IMG/VR virus record: IMGVR_UViG_3300030430_002361
Location: 1 to 38,283 of that record
Direction: 5' to 3' (one strand)
DNA length: 38,283 bases
DNA from: a virus
Positions 4,003-36,103 of the stretch are shown here, one piece after another (position 1 is the first letter of the stretch; each line of letters begins with the position of its first letter). The notes below the pieces were generated by a model, which saw only the letters and a program-made list of their open reading frames with translations, did not search any database and was not told where the DNA came from. Both the position numbers and the translations under genes were made by a program.

Positions 4003-4233
4003 ATGAGTATAAATGAAGATACTATCGTGGTTGCTGGGAAGAGAATCCCTAAGATAGATGTAGATACTGTTACAACTATCAAACACGCCAAAACAGGAAA
4101 AGTCTACGCTTCAGAAGAAGAGGCAACCAAAGATGTTCAAGATCCTGCTACCGACACAAAAGAAGAAGACATACAAAAAGATGTCGCCATAAAAGTAAAT
4201 AAAATGCCCGATATATTTGGAGGGACTAGTTAG
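4003..4233 (+). CDS. Small charged protein, unknown function
   Basis: A 76-residue protein with a very strong ribosome-binding site (AAGGAGG about 7 bases before the ATG), suggesting high expression. The sequence is rich in D, E, K and T, with a beta-like N-terminal half (TIVVAGKRIPKIDVDTVTTI) and an acidic, disordered-looking C-terminal half. No membrane segment or known motif is seen. It lies between structural genes and may be a minor virion or assembly protein. Confidence 0.7.
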   Translation: MSINEDTIVVAGKRIPKIDVDTVTTIKHAKTGKVYASEEEATKDVQDPATDTKEEDIQKDVAIKVNKMPDIFGGTS

Positions 4234-4236
4234 AAC

Positions 4237-8264: not shown

Positions 8265-8794
8265 TGGTTGATAATATTAAAAAACCCACAATCGGTAAAT
8301 TTTTAAAAACTACTAGTCTTGCAGGTATTGTATATGAGCTAGGCAAAGAGGTTTTAAAAATAGAAAATGCTATGCCTACAGATAAAGAAGAGAGAGAACT
8401 ATTAAGAAAAAGCATCATAGATGGAAATTTACCAACTGTTACATATGATAAGGAAGGTAGACCTACTTACACACTAGGTAATAACGTAAATTTAAAAGAT
8501 CATTTACCGTACAAAAAACAAACTATGTTTGGTGGCATGGAAGAGTTTGTACTAGTAGATCCATATGATGAAATATATGGCCCGATAGATGATGATAGTT
8601 ACGAACTGACAGAAATGGGTTACAGGAAAAAAAATAGGCCTGGTATGGTAGAAAGAGTATTTAACGCTGCTACTAATGCTTATGAAGATGTGGTTCATCA
8701 CACTCCACCAGAACTTAGAAAAGTGGTCGGTAATGTAAGAGATATTGTAGTAGAATCAGGTAAAGCACTTGCGAAAGGCATGAGTTTTAAATAA
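8264..8794 (+). CDS. Hypothetical protein in the internal-protein block (176 aa)
   Basis: The start ATG overlaps the previous stop (TAATG) and its stop overlaps the next start in the same way, so it is probably translated by coupling. The 176-residue product is charged and mostly polar, with a basic N-terminus (MVDNIKKPTIGKFLKTTSLAG). No transmembrane segment, signal peptide or catalytic signature is visible. It may be a minor virion component made in proportion to its neighbours. No family recognised. Confidence 0.65.
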   Translation: MVDNIKKPTIGKFLKTTSLAGIVYELGKEVLKIENAMPTDKEERELLRKSIIDGNLPTVTYDKEGRPTYTLGNNVNLKDHLPYKKQTMFGGMEEFVLVDPYDEIYGPIDDDSYELTEMGYRKKNRPGMVERVFNAATNAYEDVVHHTPPELRKVVGNVRDIVVESGKALAKGMSFK

Positions 8795-11700: not shown

Positions 11701-11802
11701 TTAGCTGGTGGTAATTTATATGAAGCCATTGCAACAGCAAAACGAGGTGGTAGTATAAATAAACAAGGCATAATGTATTTTGCAGGAAGGAGGAGACCAT
11801 AA
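8794..11802 (+). CDS. Very large putative internal/DNA-ejection protein (1002 aa)
   Basis: The largest gene complete in the window. The protein has a small-residue hydrophobic stretch near residues 230-250 (GAVAGSASAGAYGASIAYDG) and a long one near 783-810 (GAILGAFIATNFAGGPLAGL), with helical, K/Q/N-rich sequence elsewhere. Size and the buried hydrophobic helices fit large podoviral ejection proteins that form a trans-envelope channel. No lysozyme or transglycosylase active-site motif was recognised. The C-terminus ends in a short G/R-rich tail (KRGGSINKQGIMYFAGRRRP) resembling GG-containing motifs in adjacent proteins. Coupled at both ends by TAATG overlaps. Function inferred. Confidence 0.7.
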   Translation: MELWSYNEWNGGKEDYLGKYGLTDEMLINRFGEVDIKLMVPDKTMYLNSAKADTVEGAKQLDEERYGFEQFINLLRKENKIETQTPTALLTGEQLATYTELQRLKKNAAKEKQLIDNPVLYLSDQWKASVDEDDRNLLTLLTGGGTESGKGIIGTGIDIYKGNEGFDALKKLGIDSIQGVKVSAIKMMPDLTKENFALMGELFGNLPYYFYNKKGLANAFLNPSKYPGQVGAVAGSASAGAYGASIAYDGLNAAIRELKDLPDPSLSTDPKVQNLNNAKNAFVFTGGAAGLEPAFKKIKNWARWWYGVKEGSNAEQLAKMALDMKAPFGIQNVTSQAWAKWYGRVVGVFPFIGQPLRASKAKTAYWADEQLMANLNELAPLTSVMHAGGFLTDEAKRKFAKWAYMNDQFYNDFYVKAAALDDAVGIGNGYIPTARLKETAKSYADLTRRGVVPVGDGQVIGGLQQAPDFEQFLMSFEGLPEYINAFQFRNLQKTFNQKWGEYASKYGVKENDTAASHAFPFKKALEEGLNDIQHWRLPVGQGGVPDPALVKQMELVKQSLIIANENFAPMATLYKSPVAQQFSQVDRAMFIQGAVENQGWIYDDQLAQQLFDTFFTRPSARALEDLSKIVTRNADPNADPLNRAARVYMNQLFEQSADSIPYNIKTGSIENLAFQQKEFLSKAGVSQEAFKTNIVTSNPDIRMINIFNPTKFRNSLKLETQDGKQFMLELYSKMINPDTGRAYGQDGAKAALENLNKILDIAQIGYDTKIAETAQFVARRAVLGGRGAILGAFIATNFAGGPLAGLTMAFLARHQAKILSDPKKLANLVNMADDTLSDKIRRSNYVRLFRAIYPGENDVPEGLDIDDFDEVLNFMLMRDFQPSVTNEDVSPAPGAPKELKTFEPNFIRENAPEAGPAEIELMEFKKENKLSNNMSNEFITKDKPKFAANTISSPFRPIGGNMSNAKRAALAGGNLYEAIATAKRGGSINKQGIMYFAGRRRP

Positions 11803-14897: not shown

Positions 14898-16284
14898 AGC
14901 TGATGTATGCCTTCCTAATTATGAAGGCTTATGTGAACCTGGCGTTACAATCACAGAAGATGTACAGGTTGAGGTTACCGAAGAAGATTTAGGAACAGAG
15001 ATAGTAACTACCACAACTACTACAACTACAACCACAACACAAACTGTTATCAACGAAGACTCAGGTAACATATTAGATAGTTCTTTAGGTTATGTAGGCA
15101 CTCAAGACGATGGAGACATGCGAACAGATTGGGGTGGACAAGGTCCTGCTTCAATGCCAACTGGCAATACTTGTGGTGAGTTAGGATCAGATAGGTGTGC
15201 ACAGATTACAGGATCAGGTAATAGTACTTCAACCATGGGTGTCTCAGGCATGGGTACAACTTTTATAATTAATAATATAGATATTTCTGACTTAGAAATA
15301 GACAGAGGTGGTCAAGTAAGATACTCAATTGAAGTCGAAAAACGAGATGCTCAAGATAGAATATACATGCACATTACAGGGCGTAATGGATCTAACACAG
15401 TCTTTCAAGGAACTGATATCTTGTCTGAATCTGGCATTGCATCAGGTTACCAATCATACACTGGGTCTTTTGATTTCAGTGGTGTTTTAAATAGGATAAC
15501 TGTTGAGGTAGGTGGACGAGACATCAATCTTGCAATAGGTCCCTTATTTGATGATGTGACTGTCAACGTATTTTATAATGTAATTAACACAATTATAACT
15601 CAACAAATCACAACAATAGAAGAAATATACTATTTAAATCTTTTTGATTCTGTTGAATTAGATTTTGTAGAAGAGGTGTTTGAATTCAATGATGTAAGTA
15701 TGAATGATGGTGAGATAGAGTTTGCACCTATAGAAGCCCCTGTAGAAGAAATTACCATGGCTAGTGTAGAATTAGAAATAGCTGAGATAGAAATAAATTT
15801 ACCAGAGCCTGAGGTAGAAGTTGTTGAAATAGAAACGGAGATTGAGTTAGAGATTGAAATGGAAATGGAGGAGATTGTAGTTGTAGAGGCTGAACCTGAA
15901 GAAGAGATTATCGAAGAATCTCAAGAAGAACCACAGGAATCAGAACCAGAGCAACCACAAACACCACAAAAAGAAGAAGATCCAGAAGAAACAACAGAAG
16001 AAGAGAAACCATCTGAGCCTAAAGTATCAAAGAAAGAAAAAGCTGCTACAAAAATTGTGAAGAAGATTGACGATAAGGCTAGATATGATGACGCTGCACA
16101 AACCAAAACACTAATAGTTATGCAAATTTTAGGTAATACAAAAACATTTTTTGACAGTCAATCTGTCATACAAGATAAAAATGTAGATCAATATTTAAAC
16201 AAGACAATAGATGATCAGTATGGTATGCTATTTAACATGGCACAAGAAGATACTATTCAGGAGATGATAAATGCCCAGTATTGA
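14845..16284 (+). CDS. Exported acidic low-complexity protein
   Basis: A 479-residue protein with signal peptide (MLLRILALWLFLCYSYSKA). Mature regions: an unbroken threonine run of about 12 residues near 55-66, a beta-rich domain (about 85-245) that could be a carbohydrate- or surface-binding sandwich, then a very acidic E/V/I/P-rich segment (about 295-390), and a helical C-terminus. The start lies inside the previous gene, preceded by AGGGAG. It belongs to the secreted/membrane block after the endolysin, so a periplasmic or surface role is inferred; outer-membrane disruption or superinfection effects are possible but unshown. Confidence 0.65.
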   Translation: MLLRILALWLFLCYSYSKADVCLPNYEGLCEPGVTITEDVQVEVTEEDLGTEIVTTTTTTTTTTTQTVINEDSGNILDSSLGYVGTQDDGDMRTDWGGQGPASMPTGNTCGELGSDRCAQITGSGNSTSTMGVSGMGTTFIINNIDISDLEIDRGGQVRYSIEVEKRDAQDRIYMHITGRNGSNTVFQGTDILSESGIASGYQSYTGSFDFSGVLNRITVEVGGRDINLAIGPLFDDVTVNVFYNVINTIITQQITTIEEIYYLNLFDSVELDFVEEVFEFNDVSMNDGEIEFAPIEAPVEEITMASVELEIAEIEINLPEPEVEVVEIETEIELEIEMEMEEIVVVEAEPEEEIIEESQEEPQESEPEQPQTPQKEEDPEETTEEEKPSEPKVSKKEKAATKIVKKIDDKARYDDAAQTKTLIVMQILGNTKTFFDSQSVIQDKNVDQYLNKTIDDQYGMLFNMAQEDTIQEMINAQY

Positions 16285-16729
16285 GTATAGCGGTATGAAG
16301 ATTACCGGGGGGAAGGTGTTTGCCATCTTTACTTTACTAGGTGCTTTAGGTGGTGCTGCGTGGACGGGTTTTACTTTTTATCAGGATTATCTTGATATGA
16401 AGGAAAAAATAACTCTTTATACCGAGCCAGACCTATCTCAGTATGATGAAGGTATGGCTGTGTTGAAGTCTGAGATTGATATGATATTGCAAGAAATAAC
16501 CATAATATCTGATGTTGCTAGAGATATGCGTTCCGATATGAAAGCTGATTTACGTCAAATGAATGGTGACATCAGACACATTACAGAAATTGTAAATGAT
16601 GTTGAGGATAGACAAAAAGAAGATGCTAGAGAATTGCTTGATGAAATGAAATTATTAGAAGAGAGTCTTGACCTAAAAATAAACAAGGCTTTGAATAATC
16701 CTTTATCAAACATGAGCGCCAAAAACTAA
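16271..16729 (+). CDS. Membrane-anchored coiled-coil protein (holin/spanin-like)
   Basis: A 152-residue protein: one membrane segment (about residues 13-35, GGKVFAIFTLLGALGGAAWTG) followed by a long charged coiled coil (about 70-145). The start MPSIEYSGMKITGGK resembles a conserved marine phage family. Topology fits an inner-membrane spanin or holin-like partner, but no lipobox partner protein was identified. AGGAG precedes the ATG, which lies 13 bases inside the preceding gene. Its 3' end overlaps the convergent minus-strand gene by 24 bases. Confidence 0.7.
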   Translation: MPSIEYSGMKITGGKVFAIFTLLGALGGAAWTGFTFYQDYLDMKEKITLYTEPDLSQYDEGMAVLKSEIDMILQEITIISDVARDMRSDMKADLRQMNGDIRHITEIVNDVEDRQKEDARELLDEMKLLEESLDLKINKALNNPLSNMSAKN

Positions 16730-17479
16730 ATCAAAATACTTTTGTTGATTATCATTTAGATCAGCTAAATTTTTTATCTCACTATCATTTTTACATAATT
16801 GATTATACACATCTTTATCTTTACACCAGTCTCTACCTGTCCAAAACTCAAAGCCATCGTACTTTGATTTATAAGCACTGCTATTTTCATAACTGTAAGA
16901 AAAATAATAATACTGGTAACTCCAGTCCATACAATATTTTATCTCATATAATGTAGCGTAGGTGCCCATACCTAATTTAGGATTTTCATAATCCCATGCA
17001 AACTGACCTGTCATAAAATGATTGTCAACCATCATAGCTTCGGTAAAAGCGATAGGTTTATCTTTGTAAAAATAAACAAAATATTTCCAGTCAATCGGAT
17101 CATCACGCATAAACTCTTCACTTTCTTTCTCATTATTTATTTCATAATAATTTTTTTGACGAATATATTTTTTATATATCTCTGCAATATCATCTACTAA
17201 ATATGTAGGTAACTTATCGTAAGTATGAACACTTATATTTTTTTTATTTAATGTATACTTTTGTTTTTTTGAAAATGTAAACTTTGATAGCTGCAGTCTA
17301 CTGGACCTGGCATTAATCCAAGTAATGTGATTTATCTTTGTATAATACCAAGATAGAGGTAACCAGCCATTATTAAATGCATAATCATATTCATGCTCTT
17401 CAAACTCTGCTAATGGTAGACTATAAAGTAAATCGTAATGTGTTAATTTACCAGTAATATGATCAAAAAATATTTTCAC
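16706..17479 (-). CDS. ATE/GNAT-like protein, possible aminoacyl-tRNA-protein transferase
   Basis: A 257-residue protein, Y/F/K/D-rich, starting with GTG at a one-base overlap with the upstream stop codon. The C-terminal half resembles the conserved domain of arginyl/leucyl-tRNA-protein transferases (ATE/Bpt): GMGTYATLYEIKYC, then YYYFSYSYENSSAYKSKYDG, comparable with the family pattern L-G-x-Y-(S/A)-x-L-x-x-I ... Y-Y-x-G-Y-x-I-x-x-x-x-x-M-x-Y-K. These enzymes use a GNAT-like fold to add an amino acid to protein N-termini, marking them for ClpS/ClpAP degradation. The ATE N-terminal cysteines are absent. It could instead be a generic GNAT acyltransferase. Transfer activity is inferred. Confidence 0.55.
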   Translation of the reverse strand: MKIFFDHITGKLTHYDLLYSLPLAEFEEHEYDYAFNNGWLPLSWYYTKINHITWINARSSRLQLSKFTFSKKQKYTLNKKNISVHTYDKLPTYLVDDIAEIYKKYIRQKNYYEINNEKESEEFMRDDPIDWKYFVYFYKDKPIAFTEAMMVDNHFMTGQFAWDYENPKLGMGTYATLYEIKYCMDWSYQYYYFSYSYENSSAYKSKYDGFEFWTGRDWCKDKDVYNQLCKNDSEIKNLADLNDNQQKYFDLVFGAHV

Positions 17480-18114
17480 TAAGGGCGTTCAAACTGAGTC
17501 ATATAAGAGTCATCAGTCTTAGTGTCTTCTTCTCTAGTGTTTTCCACTGTATAAAAGTTTTGATCAATCTTATATCCAGGGTTCTTCACTAATCTCTCTT
17601 CCATAAAAGCATCATCATACCAAATTGTTCTATTATTAGGATAAGCAAAAAAATTACCATCATCCATACGAAACATGTGTGCACATTTATGTTCAGGATC
17701 CTCACTAAAGTTAGTGTCTAACATACCCGCTTTGTTCTCCCATGCCCAATCTATGGTAAACATATAAGTGCCTTTTCTTTTTGTACCTTTGTAGTCTACT
17801 AACTCTGCTCTACAATTAGCTAGTCTATTTCTTCTTTGTACATCCACATAAGGTGAAAAACAATCCCAATATTGATGTATGTTTAAAGGATGTTTAGGTG
17901 CATCTTTTTTCCAACAAAAAGCATGTATTGGTCTTCTAGTCCAATTTACACCATTAGGTAATAAACACTCAAATAATAGTGCTCTTCGCTCAAGACTATT
18001 TACAGTATGCACATCAGCAAAAGTAAATTCACCGTGTCCTTTCTCATGATCATATAAATATTCGTCTCTTATATAAGCACTGAAAGGAGGTAGATTATGA
18101 TTAAGATAAGCCAT
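17479..18114 (-). CDS. Conserved phage hypothetical protein
   Basis: A 211-residue soluble protein, rich in W, Y, D and H, beginning MAYLNHNLPPFSAYIRDEYL. I recognise this N-terminal pattern as a conserved hypothetical of marine phages, including some cyanophages, with no function I know of. The middle contains LPNGVNWTRRPIHAFCWKKD and WDCFSPYVDVQRR. It lies between the SNF2 helicase and the ATE-like gene on the same strand with minimal gaps, so the three are probably one operon. No membrane segment is visible. Confidence 0.75.
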   Translation of the reverse strand: MAYLNHNLPPFSAYIRDEYLYDHEKGHGEFTFADVHTVNSLERRALLFECLLPNGVNWTRRPIHAFCWKKDAPKHPLNIHQYWDCFSPYVDVQRRNRLANCRAELVDYKGTKRKGTYMFTIDWAWENKAGMLDTNFSEDPEHKCAHMFRMDDGNFFAYPNNRTIWYDDAFMEERLVKNPGYKIDQNFYTVENTREEDTKTDDSYMTQFERP

Positions 18115-18128
18115 GTATAAAAGTTATA

Positions 18129-19580
18129 TTATACTAGCCAGCTTTTCAAGTCTTCACCCAGCACCTCTGTCGCAATGTCAATCTTAGATCTTAAACATTT
18201 AACAATGTTTTCATCAACAGTTTTTTCTGCAATAAAGTCTACATAAGTTACTTTATTGTTTTGACCAATCCTGTGAGTTCTATCCTCTGATTGCAAACGT
18301 ATTTCTAAATCGTAACTGTTGCTGTAATACACGACAGTGTGACTAGCAGTAAGAGTAAGTCCATACCCTCCAGTCTTTGGATTAGCAACAAGGTATTTAA
18401 GATTATCTTCTTTATCTTGAAACCTAGATACAATTTGATCCCTATCGTCCACAGCCGTATCACCGTAAAAGCTACACGCAGTTTGTGTTCCATATTTATT
18501 CTCCAGTTCTTTTGTTATTGTTTTTATGTCATGTCTATAATTTGCCCAGATGATTACTTTACCATCTGTTTCATCTAAAAAGTTAAGTAACTCTTTTATT
18601 CTATTATTTTTTAAGGTTATTAACTTACCTTCATCTGTAGTCATGTGACCACAAGTTATTTGATGTAGTCTCATCAATTGTGTGAGGCCAGAAAAAGCAG
18701 TCATAGTATCGCCTTCTAATTCTGCTATGGCAAACTGTTTCATTTCTTGATATGCTTTTTGTTGTTCTTTTGTTAGCTCAACAAATCTTTTAGTGTATAA
18801 TTTTTCTGGTAAGTCAAGACAATCTTCTTTTAAAACTCGTGACGAAAACTTTTCTAGTTTTTCATTTAACTCATCAAGTCTTATATACTTGATAACATGC
18901 TGATAAGTATGCGCACCACCTGCGGCATTTCTTTGTGCCATTAGTGCGTAACGACTTTTAAAAGCCCAAAAAGATGTGTACCCTAACAAGTCTTCAGATA
19001 AAAACGCACACTGCGTATATAAATCTAAAGGTGATTTAGTAACTGGTGATCCTGTAAGTATTCTTCTGTACTTAGCATGTGCCCCTAGTTTTATTGCACT
19101 CTTAGTTCTTGTAGCTGTAGGTGATTTAATTGTGGTAGACTCGTCAACTGCCATGAGCACTGCATGATTTTTTAAAAACTCTAAAGCTACAGTGTATCCT
19201 TTAGTTGTGCTTAACGCTTCAACATTTATCAAAAATATTTTTAATTTTTCAGAGAACACGGACAACGAATCTAATAGAGCTTTTTGTTTTTTATTTGGTG
19301 TAGGTGTCCAACATATGACAGAGTGATCTACGCTGTCAGGTAGATGTTTAGGTAACTCAGATATCATCCAGTTTCTATACACGCCTTTTGGTGCAACAAT
19401 TAAGGCACCGTTTATTTTTCTTTTTTTGTGTAATATGGCCAGGTTATCTATCAATACCTTTGACTTACCCGTGCCCATTTCCATAAAGAAAGCAAAAACT
19501 TTTTTATCCCAGCATTTATCTAATACAGCTTTTTGATGTTGAAAAGGTTCGGTTTTAAACTTATAACTATAACTATACAT
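18129..19580 (-). CDS. SNF2/DEAD-type superfamily 2 helicase
   Basis: I start this at 19580 (483 aa), since AAGGAG lies about 8 bases upstream of that ATG; a start at 19619 would add 13 residues without a good site. Motifs: I (MEMGTGKSK, about residues 32-40), II (VDEST, in place of DEAH/DEAQ), III (LTGSPVTKS), V (ANPKTGGYGLTLTAS) and VI (QSEDRTHRIGQ). R-I-G-Q is the SNF2 signature. It probably uses ATP to translocate on duplex DNA in replication or recombination. It is first in a three-gene leftward operon, with a likely promoter shared back to back with the rightward replication block. Confidence 0.9.
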   Translation of the reverse strand: MYSYSYKFKTEPFQHQKAVLDKCWDKKVFAFFMEMGTGKSKVLIDNLAILHKKRKINGALIVAPKGVYRNWMISELPKHLPDSVDHSVICWTPTPNKKQKALLDSLSVFSEKLKIFLINVEALSTTKGYTVALEFLKNHAVLMAVDESTTIKSPTATRTKSAIKLGAHAKYRRILTGSPVTKSPLDLYTQCAFLSEDLLGYTSFWAFKSRYALMAQRNAAGGAHTYQHVIKYIRLDELNEKLEKFSSRVLKEDCLDLPEKLYTKRFVELTKEQQKAYQEMKQFAIAELEGDTMTAFSGLTQLMRLHQITCGHMTTDEGKLITLKNNRIKELLNFLDETDGKVIIWANYRHDIKTITKELENKYGTQTACSFYGDTAVDDRDQIVSRFQDKEDNLKYLVANPKTGGYGLTLTASHTVVYYSNSYDLEIRLQSEDRTHRIGQNNKVTYVDFIAEKTVDENIVKCLRSKIDIATEVLGEDLKSWLV

Positions 19581-19660
19581 TCTAAATTCTCCTTGTATCC
19601 CATAATTATATACTTGCAAAAAAATAAATCAAGTGTATAATAATGGGAGAAGAAAATAGA
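19580..19660. promoter_or_regulatory. Divergent promoter region between leftward helicase operon and rightward replication operon
   Basis: Rightward: TTGCAA at 19614-19619, 16-base spacer, TATAAT at 19636-19641, followed by AATGGGAG. Leftward (read on the minus strand): TTGATT, 16 bases, TATAAT, then TATGGGATA and AAGGAG before the helicase ATG. Both resemble sigma-70-type promoters. Both place a TGGG element just after the -10 box, a pattern repeated elsewhere in the window. Predicted by eye only. Confidence 0.6.
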
Positions 19661-27713: not shown

Positions 27714-28373
27714 ATGCAAGAAAAACAAATTAATTATGATATGTTCACGCCTTTCGGACCACGGATCATGAAGAGTTCTGTGCCACAGAATATAGTGGAC
27801 GAAGTAAATAAAAAGGCTGACGATATATTAAACGATGATAAAAGATCAGAACAATTAGATTATAGTGCTAACCTGGCTGGTAACGTGAAAAAAGAAGTAG
27901 CGTTATCCTTGGGCGAAATTAAATCATTAGAGTTAGTGATAAATAAATTAGTGACGGAGTATATACTAAAAACTGTTGGTAATCAATTTAATCCAGAAAA
28001 TACTAACATGACTTATACTTCATGGGTTGTAAGTCAGTACGCAGGTGACTTTAATCCTGTACATATACATGACTCGCAGCTATCAGGTGTATTCTTTTTA
28101 AAGATACCACCAGGCTATGAAGAAGAGTTCAGGAGAGAGGATCATTATCCTAGTGTTGGTTGTTTAGAATTTTTAGGTAGTGTGCCGAATACTTTTAGTA
28201 AGCATTCACACATGGCTAAACCACAGATAGGTGATCTGTATATATTTCCTAGTTGGTTATCGCACCAGGTCTATCCGTTTCGTAGTGAAGGTGAGCGTAG
28301 ATCTATGGCATTTAACATACATTTAAGATCCAAGGTTCCCGGACAAGATGTCGGTAAGGGTATCGATAAATAA
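27714..28373 (+). CDS. 2-oxoglutarate/Fe(II)-dependent oxygenase-like protein
   Basis: A 219-residue protein with AAGGAG before the ATG. The fold's metal-site pattern is visible: FNPVHIHDSQLSGVFFLKIP (H-x-H/D at about residues 117-120), later GDLYIFPSWLSHQVYPF (second metal His, about 190) and GERRSMAFNIHL (Arg for 2-oxoglutarate). This fits the putative phage 2OG-Fe(II) oxygenase family common in marine phages, presumed to hydroxylate nucleic acid, protein or small molecules. Substrate unknown. It is preceded by a strong hairpin region. Confidence 0.8.
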   Translation: MQEKQINYDMFTPFGPRIMKSSVPQNIVDEVNKKADDILNDDKRSEQLDYSANLAGNVKKEVALSLGEIKSLELVINKLVTEYILKTVGNQFNPENTNMTYTSWVVSQYAGDFNPVHIHDSQLSGVFFLKIPPGYEEEFRREDHYPSVGCLEFLGSVPNTFSKHSHMAKPQIGDLYIFPSWLSHQVYPFRSEGERRSMAFNIHLRSKVPGQDVGKGIDK

Positions 28374-28477
28374 TGGCTCACACGGGAAGAGCAGGGTTTC
28401 ATAAAGGTAGACGAAAGATAGGATCTAAAAAAAGAAGACGTAGATCTAGTAAATATAAAAATAGGAGGCGCAAATGA
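28373..28477 (+). CDS. Arg/Lys-rich 34-aa peptide
   Basis: The ATG overlaps the previous TAA (TAATG). The 34-residue product begins MAHTGRAGFHKGRRKIGSKK and continues almost entirely in R, K, S and Y. It is highly basic and could bind nucleic acid or RNA. Its 3' end contains the ribosome-binding site (AGGAGG) and start of the next gene (ATGA overlap). Translational coupling on both sides supports a real gene. No function known. Confidence 0.6.
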   Translation: MAHTGRAGFHKGRRKIGSKKRRRRSSKYKNRRRK

Positions 28478-28584
28478 TTTTAGGATTGTTAGTATTGAAT
28501 ACTTTAATATTATTATTTATTGGTTATATGGTGTGGGTAATCGGTGATCGCCAGGCCAGGATACATAGAGAGAGGTTAAAATAA
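28474..28584 (+). CDS. Small single-pass membrane protein (36 aa)
   Basis: A perfect ribosome-binding site (AGGAGG) lies 5 bases before the ATG. The product is MILGLLVLNTLILLFIGYMV followed by WVIGD and a basic end, RQARIHRERLK: one membrane helix with a basic cytoplasmic tail. It overlaps the previous gene by 4 bases and shares TAATG with the next. It may be a small inner-membrane host-interaction protein; function unknown. Confidence 0.65.
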   Translation: MILGLLVLNTLILLFIGYMVWVIGDRQARIHRERLK

Positions 28585-28769
28585 TGGAAGACGAAATAAA
28601 AACGATAAGGGACGAAGTAAAATTGTTAAGGGAGAAAGTTGCACGGCTCACGGACCAGGTCAAAGATCAAATAGAAATAAATGATTTTTTACGAAAAATG
28701 AATAACGAACTAAATGAAAAGAACAAGGATAAAGAATGGTGGAGAAAGATAAAGAGTCCAAGGTTTTAG
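28584..28769 (+). CDS. Small coiled-coil protein (61 aa)
   Basis: A 61-residue, almost wholly helical and charged product (MEDEIKTIRDEVKLLREKVA ...) with clear heptad spacing of I/L/V over about residues 5-45. It starts by a TAATG overlap with the small membrane protein and overlaps the DUF3310 gene at its 3' end by 34 bases. It probably oligomerises or partners a neighbour. No known family. Confidence 0.6.
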   Translation: MEDEIKTIRDEVKLLREKVARLTDQVKDQIEINDFLRKMNNELNEKNKDKEWWRKIKSPRF

Positions 28770-28966
28770 ATAAAATAAACCCGCCATATTATGTCGGAGC
28801 CAAGATTCAAGTGTCAGATTTTATAGCAGAATTTAAGCTAGATTATTTTAGCGGTAATGTGATTAAGTATGTTGTAAGGCAAAAATTCAAGAACGGATTA
28901 GAAGATTTAAAGAAAGCCAGGTGGTATTTAGATAAACTTATATCTACACATCCTGATTCAACATAA
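28736..28966 (+). CDS. DUF3310-like small phage protein
   Basis: A 76-residue protein with the DUF3310 signature: INPPYYVGAKIQVSDFIAEF, LDYFSGNVIKYVVRQKFK, KNGLEDLKKARWYLDKLI. Family members are common in phages; some are annotated as nucleotide-kinase-like, but the function is not established. The N-terminus overlaps the coiled-coil gene, and the 3' end overlaps the convergent minus-strand gene by 23 bases. Confidence 0.85.
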   Translation: MVEKDKESKVLDKINPPYYVGAKIQVSDFIAEFKLDYFSGNVIKYVVRQKFKNGLEDLKKARWYLDKLISTHPDST

Positions 28967-29159
28967 TAGGATAAGCATCAACACATTGCACAGCGACTGT
29001 ATTTGTAGGATTCTGTGCCATCATTATGTTACCAAAACTCTCAGCTGCTAATTCACAAGATTCTTTTGTATCGAAATATCTTTCACCTGCTACACGAATA
29101 CAATCATCGTATGGTTGTGCTACGCAAAAGACTCCTACTAAAAAATATTTTATGATCAA
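28944..29159 (-). CDS. Small exported protein (71 aa)
   Basis: A TTG start overlapping the upstream stop codon. The N-terminus (MIIKYFLVGVFCVAQP) is a short hydrophobic export-like segment. The mature part has three cysteines (DDCIRVAG, ESCELAAES, VQCVDAYP) and the pattern A-x-x-F-G...NPTNTVAVQCV, which resembles small secreted proteins in marine phages. It could be a lipoprotein if Cys12 is modified, but no clear lipobox exists. Last gene of a leftward operon that also encodes a HExxH protein. Confidence 0.6.
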   Translation of the reverse strand: MIIKYFLVGVFCVAQPYDDCIRVAGERYFDTKESCELAAESFGNIMMAQNPTNTVAVQCVDAYPIMLNQDV

Positions 29160-29506
29160 TTTAATTTATCTCGTGTTAAGTATACAAGATAATCTTTAAC
29201 ATTACTCCTAGTAAATAGCTCTGTGACAAAGTTAGCGTAGGCGTTCACTACATTCTCTTCTTCATTAGCCTTTTCTAAATTGTATTGATAATAACAGCAA
29301 TGAAATAGCTCATGAACCAATAAATTAAAGGTATTTTCATTTTCCAATAGCATGATGTTTTCATCAAGTACTATTGTAAGTGGTGGTTTAGAGTGAAAAG
29401 AGCCTTGCTGTTCACCTACCTCGTAGGCTAAATCGTGGCTGACAAGCTTTAAATGAACTTTAAAAGGACCTATTTCTATTACATCAGGTCTTTTTGGTGG
29501 TTTCAC
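29156..29506 (-). CDS. HExxH zinc metallopeptidase-like protein
   Basis: A 116-residue protein started by GTG at a one-base overlap with the previous stop. The motif VHELFHCCYYQY (about residues 64-75) is H-E-x-x-H, the zinc-binding and catalytic signature of many metallopeptidases; a later Glu-rich stretch (EKANEEENVVNAYANF) could supply the third ligand (N-A-Y-A/E-x-x...). The overall plan matches small phage proteins with ImmA/IrrE- or SprT-like domains. The target protein is unknown. It sits in an operon with highly basic small proteins. Confidence 0.75.
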   Translation of the reverse strand: MKPPKRPDVIEIGPFKVHLKLVSHDLAYEVGEQQGSFHSKPPLTIVLDENIMLLENENTFNLLVHELFHCCYYQYNLEKANEEENVVNAYANFVTELFTRSNVKDYLVYLTRDKLN

Positions 29507-29589
29507 TATTTTTTCTTCTTATCTTTTTTCTTTTTCTTTTTCTTTTTCTTCTTCTTGTCTTTGTCTTTTTTATCGTAATGACTTGGCAT
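29506..29589 (-). CDS. Poly-lysine 27-aa peptide
   Basis: The ATG lies one base after the previous gene's stop and the stop overlaps the next GTG, so coupling is likely. The 27-residue product begins MPSHYDKKDKD; 18 of its 27 residues are lysine, including a run of 11, with only a few Asp. Lysine codons are mixed AAA and AAG, so it is not a mere poly-A. Long lysine runs can slow ribosomes, so it may act as a regulatory leader for the HExxH gene or as a DNA-binding peptide. Confidence 0.45.
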   Translation of the reverse strand: MPSHYDKKDKDKKKKKKKKKKKDKKKK

Positions 29590-29590
29590 T

Positions 29591-29887
29591 TTAATCTTTT
29601 TTCTTAGCACTCATAAGAGGAATAGCTGCGTTTATTTTTTTTCCAACACTTTTTAAAGCTGCAGGAGTTACAGTTTTTGTAACACTGACACCGTTTACAG
29701 AATTGATCGCTCTTCTTAAATCATCCATATTTAATCTACCAGTTGGTTTTCTCTCTCTAGCTAATTTAAGTGCTGTGGCAGTTTTACCAAACTCTTTAAG
29801 TTTACCTGGTTTATTATCAGCTTTTTGATAAAGATTCTTAACTATCTTGCCTTTAGAGTCTCTGACTGGTTTTTTTCCGTTTGACAT
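29591..29887 (-). CDS. Small basic protein (98 aa), possible DNA-binding
   Basis: AAGGAAAA precedes the ATG. The 98-residue product is rich in K and R (MSNGKKPVRDSKGKIVKNLY ... KKINAAIPLMSAKKKD) with an amphipathic helix pattern in the middle (FGKTATALKLARERK, DDLRRAINSVNGV). No cysteine, membrane or enzymatic motif. A nucleic-acid-binding role is suggested by charge only. It is the second of the leftward genes starting near 30012. Confidence 0.55.
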   Translation of the reverse strand: MSNGKKPVRDSKGKIVKNLYQKADNKPGKLKEFGKTATALKLARERKPTGRLNMDDLRRAINSVNGVSVTKTVTPAALKSVGKKINAAIPLMSAKKKD

Positions 29888-29889
29888 AA

Positions 29890-30012
29890 TTATTTTCCTT
29901 TCGGTTTTTTACCACGTTTCTTCATATTTATAGCAATTGCAGCCTGACGTTTCAACTTTTTCTTTTTACCACCAGTCAATTGCTTAGGTATTTGTGCTCG
30001 TGAAATAGGCAT
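29890..30012 (-). CDS. Lys/Arg-rich 40-aa protein
   Basis: First gene of the leftward cluster. The 40-residue product begins MPISRAQIPKQLTGGKKKKL and ends in KKRGKKPKGK, with one short helix (KRQAAIAINMKKRG). It has no clear Shine-Dalgarno and is adjacent to the divergent AT-rich/iteron region. The next start lies about 3 bases past its stop. Probably a basic nucleic-acid-binding peptide; function unknown. Confidence 0.5.
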   Translation of the reverse strand: MPISRAQIPKQLTGGKKKKLKRQAAIAINMKKRGKKPKGK

Positions 30013-30066
30013 ATAGTTGTATAGAATATATTTTATTTTATCTTTTACAATTTTTTTCTTAATATG

Positions 30067-30237
30067 AGGTTACCTAGGTTACTTTTGTAATAAGTTATTG
30101 ATTCTAGTATATTTTATAGGTAACTTATAGGTAACTTATAGGTTACCTAGTAACTTTTACTATACATGCCTTGCGAAATAATTAGTGATAAATAATAATA
30201 ATAATGTATATATAAAACAACTATATATGATTTTGAT
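30067..30237. repeat. Iteron-like AGGTWACYT array plus AT-rich tract (origin, pac or operator candidate)
   Basis: Units: AGGTTACCT 30067-30075, AGGTTACTT 30076-30084 (adjacent), AGGTAACTT 30118-30126, AGGTAACTT 30129-30137, AGGTTACCT 30140-30148, and a truncated AGTAACTT at 30149. The units at 30118, 30129 and 30140 are exactly 11 bases apart, close to one helical turn. Each is nearly self-complementary. A very AT-rich stretch with TAA repeats follows (about 30178-30237). The array lies between a leftward operon and the rightward small terminase gene. Confidence 0.65.
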
Positions 30238-30708
30238 ATGGGCAACGTAAGAAAGTTAACAACAAAACAACATAAGTTTGCAGTGTTACTAGTTACCAAA
30301 GGTGATAGAATGTCTGCAAAAGAGTGTGCAATTGAAGCAGGTTTTTCTGAAAAGTCAGCACAGCAAGCTGCAGCTAATCTGACAAATCCTAAAATGTTTC
30401 CGTTAGTTGTTAGTGAAATAGAAAGATTACGTAGAGAATGGGAACAAAAATACAAAGTAACATATGGCAGACATATTCGTAGGTTAGACGATTTATCCCG
30501 TGGTGCAGAAGAGGCAGGTAATTGGGCAGCAGCTGTAGCAGCTGAAAAGTCAAGAGGCCAGGCAGCAGGATTGTACATAGATAGAAAAGAAATACTTACA
30601 GGATCAATAGATCAGCTATCTAAGGCTGAAGTTGAGGAAAAACTCAAAGAAATAGAAAAACAATTTAGCATAAATACAGACGTTATTGACATTACACCAG
30701 AAGATTAG
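30238..30708 (+). CDS. Terminase small subunit
   Basis: A 156-residue protein. Residues about 7-60 (LTTKQHKFAVLLVTKGDRMS, ECAIEAGFSEKSAQQAAANL, NPKMFPLVVSEIERL) form the N-terminal helix-turn-helix pattern of TerS proteins, followed by helices with RAGNWAAAVAAEKSRGQAAG-like sequence and a charged C-terminus (LSKAEVEEKLKEIEKQF) typical for oligomerisation and TerL contact. TerS binds the packaging start site; the repeat array directly upstream is a natural candidate. The large subunit is about 4 kb downstream, separated by accessory genes. Confidence 0.8.
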   Translation: MGNVRKLTTKQHKFAVLLVTKGDRMSAKECAIEAGFSEKSAQQAAANLTNPKMFPLVVSEIERLRREWEQKYKVTYGRHIRRLDDLSRGAEEAGNWAAAVAAEKSRGQAAGLYIDRKEILTGSIDQLSKAEVEEKLKEIEKQFSINTDVIDITPED

Positions 30709-30710
30709 CC

Positions 30711-30744
30711 TTGCAATTTATAACTTTATGGGATAACTTATAAA
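30711..30744 (+). promoter_or_regulatory. Possible promoter with TATGGGATA element after terS
   Basis: TTGCAA at 30711-30716 is followed by TTATAACTTTATGGGATAAC and TATAAA at 30739-30744. The spacing to either -10-like element is not ideal (TATAAC too close, TATAAA 22 bases away). The TATGGGATA string matches the element at 19596-19610 (minus strand). The next gene has AAGGAG before its ATG at 30763. Tentative. Confidence 0.35.
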
Positions 30745-30762
30745 GAATAAGGAGAATCTAGA

Positions 30763-30966
30763 ATGACGAGATCTTATAAAAAAACATTTGTAAGGATTGA
30801 TCTTGATAAAACAGAGTTTGACATTATGTGCAACGTGCTAGACATGTCTTTGTTTGGTAGAAACAATCTTAAAAATCCATTGGTAAAAATCTTTTTACCT
30901 AAAATTAAATACACACTAGAACAAGAAGCAAAGAAAGGAGGTAAGAGAAAATTAAAAGATGTCTAA
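30763..30966 (+). CDS. Small basic hypothetical protein (67 aa)
   Basis: AAGGAG lies about 10 bases before the ATG. The 67-residue product (MTRSYKKTFVRIDLDKTEFD ... LEQEAKKGGKRKLKDV) has a short beta strand followed by helices and a basic C-terminus; no cysteine cluster or membrane segment. The shape is reminiscent of small DNA-binding proteins but no motif is convincing. Overlaps the next gene by 8 bases. Confidence 0.6.
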   Translation: MTRSYKKTFVRIDLDKTEFDIMCNVLDMSLFGRNNLKNPLVKIFLPKIKYTLEQEAKKGGKRKLKDV

Positions 30967-31363
30967 AATAATAGTAGCATTAGAACAGATAGATGAGGGC
31001 GCAATCAATCCTGGAACTGGTATGTATGAACAACCAATTTGGAAAATAACACTGAAAGGTCAGGAAGAAAGACTGTTAGGTAAACACAAAATGGAAGAGT
31101 ACATATCTAAATCTTTTGGCAAAGCAATACACAGATTTAAAAGATGGAAAGTTTTAACTAAGACAAGTGAAACACATGTGTATGTAATTATTTTTTCAGA
31201 TCGCACACATGAAATGTTAACACCAAATCAGTTGATGGATAGCATATATCAAGGTCATAGTGTACGAAATGATAACAAGCTTGACTATATAGATAAAGAT
31301 TTAGCTGCAAAAGGTGGCAAGAGTCCAATATTTATACCAGAAGAAAATGACAAAGAAGTATAA
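30959..31363 (+). CDS. Hypothetical protein upstream of methyltransferase (134 aa)
   Basis: A 134-residue protein (MSKIIVALEQIDEGAINPGT ...) with AAAGGAGG upstream at a rather long spacing (about 20 bases). It has mixed alpha/beta character and no recognised motif; a basic patch (KAIHRFKRWKV) is visible. Its 3' end overlaps the methyltransferase start by 17 bases, so expression is probably linked. It could be a modification-related partner, but nothing in the sequence proves it. Confidence 0.6.
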   Translation: MSKIIVALEQIDEGAINPGTGMYEQPIWKITLKGQEERLLGKHKMEEYISKSFGKAIHRFKRWKVLTKTSETHVYVIIFSDRTHEMLTPNQLMDSIYQGHSVRNDNKLDYIDKDLAAKGGKSPIFIPEENDKEV

Positions 31364-32363: not shown

Positions 32364-32524
32364 CATTGAGTATAGCACGTCAACAAAGAGCATTGAGAGC
32401 AATGCATGCAGCTAAGTCAACTGCATTCAAGCATTTTTGGTTTAATGTTTTTGGCAAGATACTCTCAAAAAGCATCATAAAAAATGAAGACGGTGTGCCA
32501 TATGACAGTGAAACCAGAAACTAA
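32351..32524 (+). CDS. Small hypothetical protein after the methyltransferase (57 aa)
   Basis: The ATG lies 13 bases inside the end of the methyltransferase gene, with AAAGGAGA upstream. The product (MDKVTLSIARQQRALRAMHA then AKSTAFKHFWFNVFGKILSK) is helical and basic. No motif recognised. It overlaps the start of the nuclease gene by 41 bases in another frame, so at least one of the two starts may be further downstream. Confidence 0.5.
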   Translation: MDKVTLSIARQQRALRAMHAAKSTAFKHFWFNVFGKILSKSIIKNEDGVPYDSETRN

Positions 32525-32945
32525 ATTTTGGAAAAAACTGAAGGAGATAACTCCTGAAATACATTGGACTAGGATAGAATCAATTAGTTCACCTGGCGTG
32601 CCTGATTTACATGGAGTTTTTCGTGGTAAAGATGGATATCCAATAAGCTTTTTTGTAGAATTAAAATGTACTAAGCTGAAAAAAATAGCATTGACTCCAC
32701 GTCAAATATCGTGGAATTACAGCTATAATGAAGCAGGTGGATTGAATTTTATCATGGCAATGGCCCTCTCTAATAGAGCATTGTATATTTATTCAGGTGG
32801 CATGGCTCGTGAACTCTCCATTACGGGGCTTAGTACTGAGCCCCTGGCCATACTAGAGTATCCGTGGAACCCGGGCCGCATGCTGCAGGTGATGGAATCA
32901 TTTCTCCATTACCGAGAAACGTGTGACGTTGCCACCGAATCATAG
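32484..32945 (+). CDS. VRR-NUC-like PD-(D/E)XK nuclease with unusual C-terminal extension
   Basis: A 153-residue protein; an alternative start is at 32502. Residues about 10-95 contain the nuclease signature: a helix with FWKKLKEITPEIHWTRIES, then PGVPDLHGVFRG (Asp) and FFVELKC (E-x-K), and LTPRQISW, matching VRR-NUC/Holliday-type nucleases. It probably nicks or resolves branched DNA. The last 40 residues (about 111 to 153) are coded by visibly GC-richer DNA containing two copies of the TCTCCATTAC repeat in different frames, so this tail probably arose from the repeat region. Confidence 0.75.
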   Translation: MKTVCHMTVKPETKFWKKLKEITPEIHWTRIESISSPGVPDLHGVFRGKDGYPISFFVELKCTKLKKIALTPRQISWNYSYNEAGGLNFIMAMALSNRALYIYSGGMARELSITGLSTEPLAILEYPWNPGRMLQVMESFLHYRETCDVATES

Positions 32946-32978
32946 ACTCATGGAGCTAAGGCCCAGGTAACTGGGTGC

Positions 32979-33005
32979 TTGACAAAAGGGTAAAGATCCT
33001 ATAAA
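32979..33005 (+). promoter_or_regulatory. Putative promoter in the repeat region
   Basis: TTGACA (32979-32984), 15-base spacer and TATAAA (33000-33005), followed by GTTGGGAC. It sits after a CCCAG-GTAA-CTGGG hairpin and no convincing ORF follows for over 400 bases, so a non-coding transcript across the repeats is possible. The same TGCTTGACA context appears at the next promoter. Confidence 0.5.
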
Positions 33006-33373
33006 GTTGGGACATGATTAGTTTAGCTCTCCATTACGCATTAGTGGTGCTATGCCTCTGCATCGCCATGTTTATCCAGTACCCCAGAACCAGGACGCCC
33101 GTGATGGTAGCTGCCATCATGGTGATTCTCCATTACACGTAGCCCACGGATCTTTCGAAGAAGATTATGGTCACGCACTGCCCCAGGCAGCCGCATCTCC
33201 ATTACGGGTGCGCTACGAATCTTTCGATGTAAAGCTAAAAGTGGTGCACTGTCCACCTGCTGTTCGTAGTTTGTTCTTCTTTCTCCATTCTCCATCGCCA
33301 CCGACCCACGACTGGCACAGGTAGTATACTAGAGGAGCTGTCTTCTCCTGGGCCTCAGGATGGAAGTGAGTGC

Positions 33374-33402
33374 TTGACAACACTAATAAAGTCCCATATA
33401 TT
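33374..33402 (+). promoter_or_regulatory. Promoter for the 33423 gene
   Basis: A perfect -35 box TTGACA (33374-33379), 17-base spacer and TATATT (33397-33402), about 20 bases before the gene at 33423. TCCCATA overlaps the -10. This is the best-spaced sigma-70-type promoter found by eye in the window. Confidence 0.6.
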
Positions 33403-33422
33403 TAGGAAAAAGGAGAAAGAAG

Positions 33423-33734
33423 ATGAATAAAAGCTGTAAGCAAAGAATAAAAGAAGAATGGAAAGAGCGTCAGCAGGATCTGCAAGATCCGCATTATGAG
33501 GCTCTTGCGTTTGATTATGTAGAACCCCATACTTTTGACAAGCAGCCAGAAGGCTACTGGCGCTGGCAGTTTAGTTGGGGCGGACCAGGTGACGAGCTTC
33601 GAGGTTTCGTAAATGAGCACAAAGAGCTGCATCGGCTGGAATATTGGTTCCTTGATTGGTTTGATGGTGCCTCTCTGCTGGTGAAGCCCGGGTCACAGCC
33701 GTGGACACAGATGCAGGAGATGATTCCGCATTAG
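33423..33734 (+). CDS. Conserved phage protein (103 aa), unknown function
   Basis: AAGGAG lies about 9 bases before the ATG, and a well-formed promoter precedes it. The 103-residue product has W/F-rich blocks WRWQFSWGGPGDELRGFV and LEYWFLDWFDGASLLV that match a conserved small family I recall in marine phages. The N-terminus (MNKSCKQRIKEEWKERQQDL) is a charged helix. Function is unknown. It is the only confident gene inside the repeat/hairpin region and is coded by the same GC-richer DNA. Confidence 0.75.
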   Translation: MNKSCKQRIKEEWKERQQDLQDPHYEALAFDYVEPHTFDKQPEGYWRWQFSWGGPGDELRGFVNEHKELHRLEYWFLDWFDGASLLVKPGSQPWTQMQEMIPH

Positions 33735-33771
33735 CGTGGTTTATACTCTTTTGAAGTGGATTGTTATACTT

Positions 33772-33793
33772 GTGCTGCTGTCCCAGGCAGCAC
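33772..33793 (+). other. Perfect 7-bp hairpin
   Basis: GTGCTGC (33772-33778) pairs with GCAGCAC (33787-33793) around an 8-base loop containing TCCCAG. The CCCAGGCAGC string of its right half recurs at 33182 and 33877, the first also inside a hairpin. No T-run follows, so it is not an obvious terminator. Confidence 0.6.
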
Positions 33794-33899
33794 GGGTGAT
33801 GCAGTGGATGGTCGGTATTATTCTCCATTAGCAAATTTTGCTACGCTTTTGCCAGTAACACACAACATGTGGCCCAGCCCAGGCAGCGGCATGCCAGAT

Positions 33900-33973
33900 C
33901 TCGTGGTGACAGAAAGGTTATGTGTCGTACTGCAACTACGATTATGCGAGTTCGAATCTCGCCCACGAGTCCA
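33900..33973 (+). tRNA. tRNA-Cys (anticodon GCA)
   Basis: A complete cloverleaf can be drawn. Acceptor CTCGTGG (33900-33906) pairs with CCACGAG (33963-33969). D-stem ACA/TGT encloses a loop with GG. Anticodon stem TCGTA/TACGA holds loop CTGCAAC, with GCA at 33932-33934. Variable loop TTAT; T-stem GCGAG/CTCGC with loop TTCGAAT. The discriminator is T (33970), the known identity base of bacterial tRNA-Cys, and CCA is encoded (33971-33973). It lies in the repeat region; two bases after the CCA the TCTCCATTCTCCATCG repeat starts. Confidence 0.93.
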
Positions 33974-34082
33974 TTCTCCATTCTCCATCGGCTGACGCCA
34001 AAGGATCTAGCACCTAACGTAATGGAGCAGGTGATGCTGCCCGTGACCAGATGGTCGTGATTTTGTTCCTCTTATAAAGTGT

Positions 34083-34111
34083 TTGACTGTAATCCCATAA
34101 TGTTGTTAAAT
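34083..34111 (+). promoter_or_regulatory. Promoter for the 34134 gene
   Basis: TTGACT (34083-34088), 17-base spacer and TTAAAT (34106-34111), 22 bases before the ATG. The spacer holds TCCCATAAT, the reverse of the ATTATGGGA element found at other probable promoters. Confidence 0.55.
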
Positions 34112-34133: not shown

Positions 34134-34400
34134 ATGTCAAACGATCTAACTTTAACTGACATCAAGACTGTCGTAGATGAAGCGATGAAGTCCGAAGTTC
34201 AAAAACTCAAGCGAGAAATCCTTGAGTCAACTTCTAATGACAAATGGACTAAAACAATCAACTACAAAGCAGTTTGTCAGCATATGGATTATGCTATCTT
34301 TGAGTTTGTCCAAACTAGTAATGATCCTAAAGTCAGAGCGTTCGGTCAAAAGTTAATGTCAGAACTTGCACAAAAGTTCGGCATAACCGAGCGTATCTAA
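34134..34400 (+). CDS. Small conserved-looking protein with own promoter and terminator
   Basis: An 88-residue soluble, helical protein (MSNDLTLTDIKTVVDEAMKS ... AFGQKLMSELAQKFGITERI) with AAAGGAG before the ATG. It forms a single-gene transcription unit: promoter at 34083-34111 and a strong intrinsic terminator 12 bases after its stop. Such an isolated, well-expressed unit just upstream of the large terminase may encode a host-takeover or DNA-binding factor, but no motif is recognised. Confidence 0.7.
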   Translation: MSNDLTLTDIKTVVDEAMKSEVQKLKREILESTSNDKWTKTINYKAVCQHMDYAIFEFVQTSNDPKVRAFGQKLMSELAQKFGITERI

Positions 34401-34450: not shown

Positions 34451-34459
34451 TTATCCACA
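34451..34459 (+). other. Consensus DnaA box
   Basis: TTATCCACA, identical to the consensus bacterial DnaA box, lies 5 bases after the terminator. A single copy may be chance; no second close copy was noticed within 200 bases. Confidence 0.4.
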
Positions 34460-34642: not shown

Positions 34643-36103
34643 ATGGAATCTATAGAATCACTAACTCAAGAAGAAGCGAGACTTTTAGCTCAAAAATTAA
34701 AAATAAAAAAATTAGAGTACTCTGTTCAAGAACAGTCACAAAAAAATTTTTTACCATTCGTAAGATCTGTTTGGCCAGAGTTCAAAGAAGGTTCACATCA
34801 CAAAATAATTTCTAAAAAATTTGAAGATATTGCATCTGGTAAGTTAAAACGATTGATCATTAACATGCCACCAAGACACACTAAGTCCGAGTTTGCATCC
34901 TTTTTATTTCCTGCGTGGTTCGTGGGCAAAAATCCAAAAGCAAAGATAATGCAAACCACACACACAGGAGAACTTGCTATTCGCTTTGGACGTAAAGTCA
35001 GGAACCTTATGGAAACGCAAGAGTATAAAAAAATTTTTAAAACTGAATTACAACCCGATAGTATGGCAGCTGGTCGGTGGGAGACGGCTCAAGGTGGAGA
35101 ATACTTTGCCGCTGGTACAGGCGGTGCGGTTACTGGTCGTGGTGCCGATCTGCTAATTATCGATGATCCACATTCCGAGCAAGACGCACTAAGCGACACG
35201 GCCCTTGATCAAGCTTATGAGTGGTACACCTCTGGTCCTCGTCAGCGTTTACAGCCTGGTGGTGCAATAGTTATTGTTATGACCCGTTGGTCCGTGAAAG
35301 ATTTAACAGGGAAGTTGATGAAGAAACAATCAGAGATTAAAGCAGATCAATGGGAAGTGGTAGAGTTTCCTGCAATCATGCCTAGTGGTAAACCAGTATG
35401 GCCAGGTTTCTGGTCGTTACCAGAACTAGAATCAGTAAAAGCGTCACTCTCAGCAAGTAAATGGAATGCACAATGGCAACAGGCTCCCGTATCACAAGAG
35501 GGTAGTATTATCAAAAGAGAGTGGTGGCAGATATGGGAAGAGAAAGATATACCTGATCTACATCACATAATTCAAAGTTACGATACAGCTTTCAGTAAAA
35601 GAGAAACAGCTGACTATTCAGCTATTACTACATGGGGCGTATTTTATCCTAAGGCTAACAATGTACCACATTTAATACTCATGGATGCGAAGCGTGGTCG
35701 GTGGGACTTTCCTGAATTAAAAAAGATGGCGTACAAAGAATACAAGTACTGGGAACCCGAAACAGTAATCATTGAAGCTAAAGCATCAGGGCTACCCCTT
35801 ACACACGAGTTAAGACAGATAGGAGTCCCTGTTGTAAATTTTACACCAAGCAAAGGACAAGATAAACATGTCAGAGTTAATTCAGTTGCACCGTTGTTCG
35901 AAAGTGGTATGATATGGACACCCGACACAAGGTGGTCGGAGGATGTAATTGAGGAATGCGCTGCGTTCCCTTATGGAGATCATGATGACTTGGTGGATAG
36001 CATGACACAGGCTGTAATGCGTTTTAGACAGGGTAACTTCTTAAGACTGAAGGATGACTATGTCGATGATCCGATGCCCAAGATTCAAAAAGAATATTAT
36101 TAA
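34643..36103 (+). CDS. terL: Terminase large subunit (packaging ATPase and nuclease)
   Basis: A 486-residue protein. ATPase: Walker A-like NMPPRHTKS (about 74-82), Walker B LLIIDDP (about 170-176), coupling-motif region VIVMTRW. Nuclease: acidic clusters QSYDTAFSK (about 313-321), VIIEAKASG (about 374-382) and HDDLVDS (about 446-452), the RNase H-like metal site. Length and order are typical of phage TerL. It translocates DNA into the procapsid and cuts concatemers. Weak ribosome-binding site; its stop overlaps the next start (TAATG). A +1-frame ORF beginning at 34573 over its 5' end is a shadow. Confidence 0.95.
   Translation: MESIESLTQEEARLLAQKLKIKKLEYSVQEQSQKNFLPFVRSVWPEFKEGSHHKIISKKFEDIASGKLKRLIINMPPRHTKSEFASFLFPAWFVGKNPKAKIMQTTHTGELAIRFGRKVRNLMETQEYKKIFKTELQPDSMAAGRWETAQGGEYFAAGTGGAVTGRGADLLIIDDPHSEQDALSDTALDQAYEWYTSGPRQRLQPGGAIVIVMTRWSVKDLTGKLMKKQSEIKADQWEVVEFPAIMPSGKPVWPGFWSLPELESVKASLSASKWNAQWQQAPVSQEGSIIKREWWQIWEEKDIPDLHHIIQSYDTAFSKRETADYSAITTWGVFYPKANNVPHLILMDAKRGRWDFPELKKMAYKEYKYWEPETVIIEAKASGLPLTHELRQIGVPVVNFTPSKGQDKHVRVNSVAPLFESGMIWTPDTRWSEDVIEECAAFPYGDHDDLVDSMTQAVMRFRQGNFLRLKDDYVDDPMPKIQKEYY

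Follow-up and report, generated by a model that had tools for sequence, protein, structure and literature searches.

On sequence grounds, the window (the whole stretch of DNA analysed, 38,283 bases) is an HTVC023P/HTVC027P-like podovirus, a marine phage of the SAR11 type. Its terminase large subunit (TerL) is closest, among named phages, to that of 023Pt_psg01 (67%), followed by HTVC027P (64%) and HTVC023P (58%); the HTVC023P type of Pelagibacter phages has been described previously (PMC9599517). A phage nucleotide search with the window gave no match. The region studied here is the slot between the terminase small subunit (TerS; 30238–30708; phrog_51, E 1.6e-10) and TerL (34643–36103; phrog_38, E 1.2e-113), and all features given below lie on the + strand unless stated otherwise. 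Elsewhere, the window carries a minus-strand block (16709–19619) with an arginyl-tRNA-protein transferase-like protein and an SNF2-type helicase, a TOTE-type primase (21397), and a 1,002-aa protein at 8794–11799 with no PHROGs match.

The ORF at 32484–32945 reads as a VRR-NUC-like nuclease (phrog_2165, E 2e-13; no Pfam match). It is followed by a sigma70-like promoter, TTGACA-15-TATAAA (32979–33005), which ends 8 nt before the start codon of a 42-aa ORF (33014–33142) with two hydrophobic stretches and an RxRxP loop. This tiny ORF was present with the same architecture, at 42 or 40 aa, in 24 of the 24 loci examined (median pN/pS 0.52), and its near-leaderless start, about 8 nt past the −10 box, suggests leaderless expression of a transmembrane peptide. 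A second sigma70-like promoter found in the scan, TTGACA-17-TATATT (33374–33402), precedes the ORF at 33423–33734, which encodes a conserved, phrog_36747-like protein of 103 aa with unassigned function. Its family has members in at least 228 viral relatives and is conserved across hundreds of contigs; distant homologues occur in alphaproteobacterial genomes (Afipia, Nitratireductor, Pelagibius and others). The family was looked at in the window and in L320–L327. In the phages examined, a tiny transmembrane ORF comes next; that of the window, the second such ORF here, has 31 aa and a GTG start (33736–33831), and its frame is open in relatives. A recurring 5′ leader hairpin, GTGGCTACCGAATCCGTTT..AAACGGCCACAC, precedes the homologue of ORF 33423 in L283, L294, L295, L301, L306 and L312; it is common to lineages with different repeat words, sometimes has larger structured-looking inserts next to it, and has no Rfam match.

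Farther downstream are a tRNA-Cys (GCA; 33900–33973), a weaker promoter-like sequence seen by eye and absent from the promoter scan list (34083–34111), the slot's second gene, a conserved ORF of 88 aa (34134–34400), and the window's only match to the DnaA box TTATCCACA (34451–34459). The tRNA-Cys was not found in L003, L298 or L253; in L003, only AATCTCGCCCACGAGTCC, left over from its 3′ end, persists beside the last repeat unit at about 4231–4301. In G013, a 19-kb contig (locus L040), several of the nine TTATCCACA boxes form tandem pairs, all of them between VRR-NUC and TerL. The initial annotation had located two promoters and a tRNA here, and two good sigma70-like promoters (at 32979 and 33374) and the tRNA were recovered. 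Its statement that most of the stretch has no convincing gene was wrong: with the end of the VRR-NUC-like ORF, the 42-aa and 103-aa ORFs, the second tiny transmembrane ORF and the tRNA-Cys, the stretch is mostly genic.

Through these genes and the gaps between them runs a repeated 10-mer, TCTCCATTAC. Five exact copies begin at 32815, 32903, 33028, 33127 and 33196, at spacings of 88, 125, 99 and 69 bases. The first two are inside the 3′ part of the VRR-NUC-like ORF, where U1 (32815–32824) is read LSIT and U2 (32903–32912) is read LHY (in FLHY); U3 (33028–33037) and U4 (33127–33136, followed by CCCACGGATCTTTCGA) are inside the 42-aa ORF; and U5 (33196–33205, followed by GCTACGAATCTTTCGA) is intergenic. 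Three variants follow: TCTCCATTCTCCATC at 33282–33296 (U6, intergenic and kept in L014 and L003), TCTCCATTAG at 33822–33831 (U7, which ends the second tiny ORF in ILH and a stop codon), and TCTCCATTCTCCATC again at 33975–33989 (U8, intergenic, on the far side of the tRNA-Cys from U7). Unit U6 also contains an AT palindrome, TAGTATACTA, at 33322–33331. With at most one mismatch to TCTCCATTAC, the window held 11 matches against 3.14 ± 1.70 in shuffled sequences, and none of 100 shuffles reached 11. A count over the whole record found the exact 10-mer nowhere outside 32815–33205 and never on the − strand. The description of five exact copies with variants on one strand was thus borne out, as were the raised G+C content of the repeat stretch (49.4% against 36.4% in the window) and a recurring string, CCCAGGCAGC, present three times. 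A complementary copy had been reported at the end of the region; the sole nearby − strand match is indeed there, GCTCCATTAC at 34019–34028, and it carries one mismatch. The AATGGAG within it (34021–34027) could pair with repeat U8. A scan with the loose pattern TTCTCCATT x2 was excluded from the evidence.

The core of the word, CTCCATT, occurs in the same place and in one orientation in scores of marine relatives, and relatives with the ORF 33423 family have the same word on the same strand at nearly the same spacing. The relatives' word keeps to the coding strand. In the distant loci, the commonest 10-mers (for example, CATCTCCATT and TCCATTCCAT) occur 50–58 times on the + strand and 0 times on the − strand. 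Among 21 distinct VRR-NUC sequences, codons 109–114 (CGT GAA CTC TCC ATT ACG) are essentially fixed, even at four-fold sites, and the synonymous sites of U1 are invariant, whereas each of the four Gly codons occurs at codon 115. Because U1 is read LSIT and U2 is read LHY, in different frames, no single protein motif accounts for both. The word is therefore under selection at the nucleotide level.

These data also bear on the view that the stretch is mostly protein-coding or neutral and that the repeats were left behind when 3′ ends of small genes (LLHSPLP-stop, ILHYA-stop, LH-stop) were duplicated. Several units do sit at gene ends that encode LH (U2, U4 and U7, and VRR-NUC in relatives), and the two tiny ORFs are conserved. 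However, U1 lies in another frame with its synonymous sites frozen, so that the codon test already weakens this reading; U5, U6 and U8 are intergenic; and the genes are the same in lineages that use other words. We consider it unlikely.

In distant relatives the repeat is organized in units of about 90 bp (85–95 bp) headed by CTCCATT(C)CATT, including the form TCTCCATT(C)CATTG. The layout of a unit is the word, a spacer of about 20–30 bp, a TACTATAGTA-type or TAGTATA box, and GC-rich words; the palindrome of U6 is the counterpart of this TACTATAGTA. An alignment of 77 distant units gave gcatcTCCATTcCATtg, about 20 bases, gGTACTATAGTAgTA, and then the GC words. Many of the distant loci L257–L316 also carry a second repeat, TACAAGTTACAA / GTTACAAGGTTACA, on a single strand. 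The sigma70-like promoters of the window sit 76–92 bp downstream of U2 and U6, and single units have no −35 box. Since the AT box lacks a −35 partner, the units are not complete promoters. Sigma70-like promoters were more numerous than expected in the slots of HTVC027P (4 against 1.0 expected) and of the window (2 against 0.45 expected), and the same scan gave no clear excess in the slot of 023Pt_psg01. T7-like single-subunit promoters were considered in view of the resemblance of TACTATAG to the T7 core and were dropped on inspection, as the bases upstream are not conserved between units.

The alignment of the 77 units also speaks to the suggestion, made in the initial annotation, that the region encodes a set of small RNAs. 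In that reading, the repeats would act as RNA, as small RNAs in tandem or as a signal, with an unpaired CUCCAUU as the active element. In the CTCCATT lineages every copy lies on the transcribed strand, predictions leave the core unpaired, and the segment just upstream of it folds slightly better than shuffled sequences (z −0.9). On the other hand, the aligned units gave no consensus fold with RNAalifold, the z value of the core in sliding windows was near 0, searches against Rfam returned the tRNA only, and the words of HTVC027P, a relative discussed below, are antisense to, or upstream of, minus-strand genes. A set of small RNAs was thus not supported, and we regard an RNA-level function as the least probable of the readings considered here.

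Near-identical genomes reveal how the units change. In the pairs L295/L296, L309/L311, L300/L309 and L283/L311, words of 15–40 nt were swapped or units of about 90 nt were gained or lost; in L295/L296, for example, AGCTGAGATGGTAGA and TGCTGCCAGGGAAGT were exchanged immediately 5′ of TCTCCATT. Genes also come and go between units, as shown by the loss of the tRNA-Cys in L003, the insertion of an ORF in L298 and a small ORF in L008. Gain, loss and recombination involve the cassettes as blocks, and the proposal of a repeat-mediated variable region was upheld to this extent, with both swapped words and whole units distinguishing otherwise near-identical arrays. Homology junctions, taken as the ends of alignments, were enriched just past the motif by a modest 1.6–1.9-fold over chance, an enrichment that is partly trivial because a conserved word lengthens the alignment. 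We therefore dropped the motif as a sharp crossover site. A host Chi-like site was also rejected: the initial annotation had proposed a count of the motif in the host, and CTCCATT was not enriched in a 1.1-Mb single-cell genome that holds a relative and is assumed to be a host (206 occurrences against 167 for the reversed control).

In related lineages whose gene order is the same, other words fill the slot between TerS/VRR-NUC and TerL, again on one strand and nearly confined to the slot. In HTVC027P, with VRR-NUC at 16222 and TerL at 20471, the word is of the type GCTTGNN: GCTTGNNGCTTG occurs 17 times in 57.6 kb, and 16 of the 17 copies are on the + strand in the slot, at 16,506–17,737. The word GGGCCCACCC is found in 023Pt_psg01, with 5 of 5 copies in the slot (15,431–17,848), and in G005, with 9 of 9 (27,764–31,322). 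In L312, L299, L301 and L029 the words are of the TTGAAATAC type and occur together with TATAGTA and CCGGCCGGCCGG, and L018/L020 have CCCCCTTCGGGGG words. Each lineage thus uses a word of its own here, and we take as the main finding that a single slot with a conserved gene order holds lineage-specific, one-way repeats. In the open pelagiphage papers searched, we found no description of these arrays. G005 carries a window-type ORF 33423 (82%) among its different repeats, which indicates that the gene moved without the cassettes; ORF 33423 was accordingly dropped as a partner of the word.

Two site-based readings rank below gene-boundary cassettes as less supported. In the first, which takes up the packaging or recombination site suggested in the initial annotation, the words would bind TerS, and the TerS–TerL slot would be the pac/cos region. 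The position fits: all lineages examined have the slot between TerS and TerL. It is also the G+C peak of HTVC027P, and one-way, clustered, lineage-specific words would suit such a site. Against this, the identity of the whole TerS protein ignores the type of motif (48% between the window and L271, which has the same word, and 50% between the window and L312, which has a different one), the words span 1–4 kb with genes between them, and L041, L043 and L047 have a gap of 415–564 bp without repeated words. TerS as the reader of the word was dropped, its whole-protein identity being equal within and between motif types, and a packaging site appears rather unlikely.

In the second, the words would be iteron-like initiator sites beside DnaA boxes. 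They are direct repeats with AT-rich stretches nearby, and the DnaA boxes TTATCCACA fall in the slot in G013 (9 of 9), G005 (3 of 3), G014 (1 of 1) and the window (1 of 1). However, two complete genomes, HTVC027P and 023Pt_psg01, have 0 such boxes, and the one box of G003 is outside the slot. Spacings of 7, 69–125 or about 800 bp are not those of phased iterons, a search of the genes identified no initiator, and the GC skew tracks the gene strand with no switch at the slot, for which reason a bidirectional origin was dropped. We judge a replication origin quite unlikely.

To the reading of the words as lineage-specific intergenic regulatory or shuffling cassettes, acting like the PeSLs of T4-type phages or like boundary sequences, we assign a probability of about 45%. 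Under this reading, the stretch would be the CTCCATT "dialect" of fast-evolving gene-boundary cassettes between TerS/VRR-NUC and TerL in HTVC023P-type podoviruses. A cassette would open with its conserved one-way word, TCTCCATTAC in this case, continue about 30 bp on with a palindrome or AT-rich box, and end in variable GC-rich words. Runs of cassettes would lead to the sigma70-type promoters of small genes, and the cassettes may set small accessory genes apart from one another, drive them, and supply the homology by which they are swapped. The strong promoters that come after runs of units (32979 and 33374 here) and the turnover of genes between units favour this reading. Several points sit uneasily with it: the window-type ORF 33423 of G005 among different repeats, the modest enrichment of junctions, the AT box without a −35 partner, and the lack of a clear promoter excess in 023Pt_psg01. 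Moreover, a pure recombination role needs neither a strict single orientation nor a switch of word between lineages.

Several known systems share part of this pattern. The stoperators of cluster A mycobacteriophages are asymmetric sites of about 13 bp that lie in short intergenic gaps in one orientation to transcription. The words resemble them in asymmetry and single orientation; here, in contrast, no repressor was found and the sites do not extend beyond a single slot of 1–4 kb. The SAS/ESAS elements of cluster K mycobacteriophages, which have been contrasted with stoperators (PMC3203893), are short, asymmetric, phage-specific motifs with 11–19 copies per genome in essentially one orientation and one part of the genome, half of them with adjoining inverted repeats (PMC3203893). 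SAS elements have the look of sites for translation initiation and are placed 3–7 bp ahead of start codons (PMC3203893), whereas the present words failed a test for a position a few bp before start codons: they are at gene ends, inside genes, or in arrays about 76–100 bp upstream of promoters.

The closer likeness is to the mobile regulatory cassettes of T4-type phages, the promoter-early stem-loops (PeSLs; Arbiol 2010, Comeau 2014). As summarized in PMC4503421 and PMC3950731, these are composite elements between genes that carry promoters and stem-loops, in a region where genes are shuffled intensely. Of these features, the intergenic position holds for U5, U6 and U8, whereas U1–U4 and U7 overlap genes or gene ends; GC hairpins or terminators precede some units, although the folding excess is weak (z −0.9). 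The present elements differ from PeSLs in that the one-way word is conserved within coding sequence too, that units stand in tandem arrays with no intervening genes, that each lineage has its own word, and that the region is the TerS–TerL slot of a podovirus. The short conserved boundary sequences proposed to underlie phage mosaicism, as cited in PMC3029335, are likewise short shared sequences at gene borders in a mosaic region; here, by contrast, the word is repeated many times per genome and switches between lineages.

Beyond the cassette reading, a further idea, which we hold to be unlikely, is that the word acts as a rapidly switching cis-acting address. Each lineage would have its own one-way word in 5–16 copies beside the terminase genes, and a putative phage reader would use it to distinguish the phage's own DNA from that of competing relatives in packaging, replication or early expression. 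The word would then evolve as a specificity code while the genes stay syntenic. Because HTVC027P is cultured and displays the same phenomenon with GCTTGNN, the function of the words is directly testable. Phages of the HTVC023P type are among the commonest on SAR11, the commonest marine bacteria, and the combination of a fixed slot, a word specific to each lineage and recombination in blocks offers a natural record of switching among the regulatory or recognition sequences of phages.
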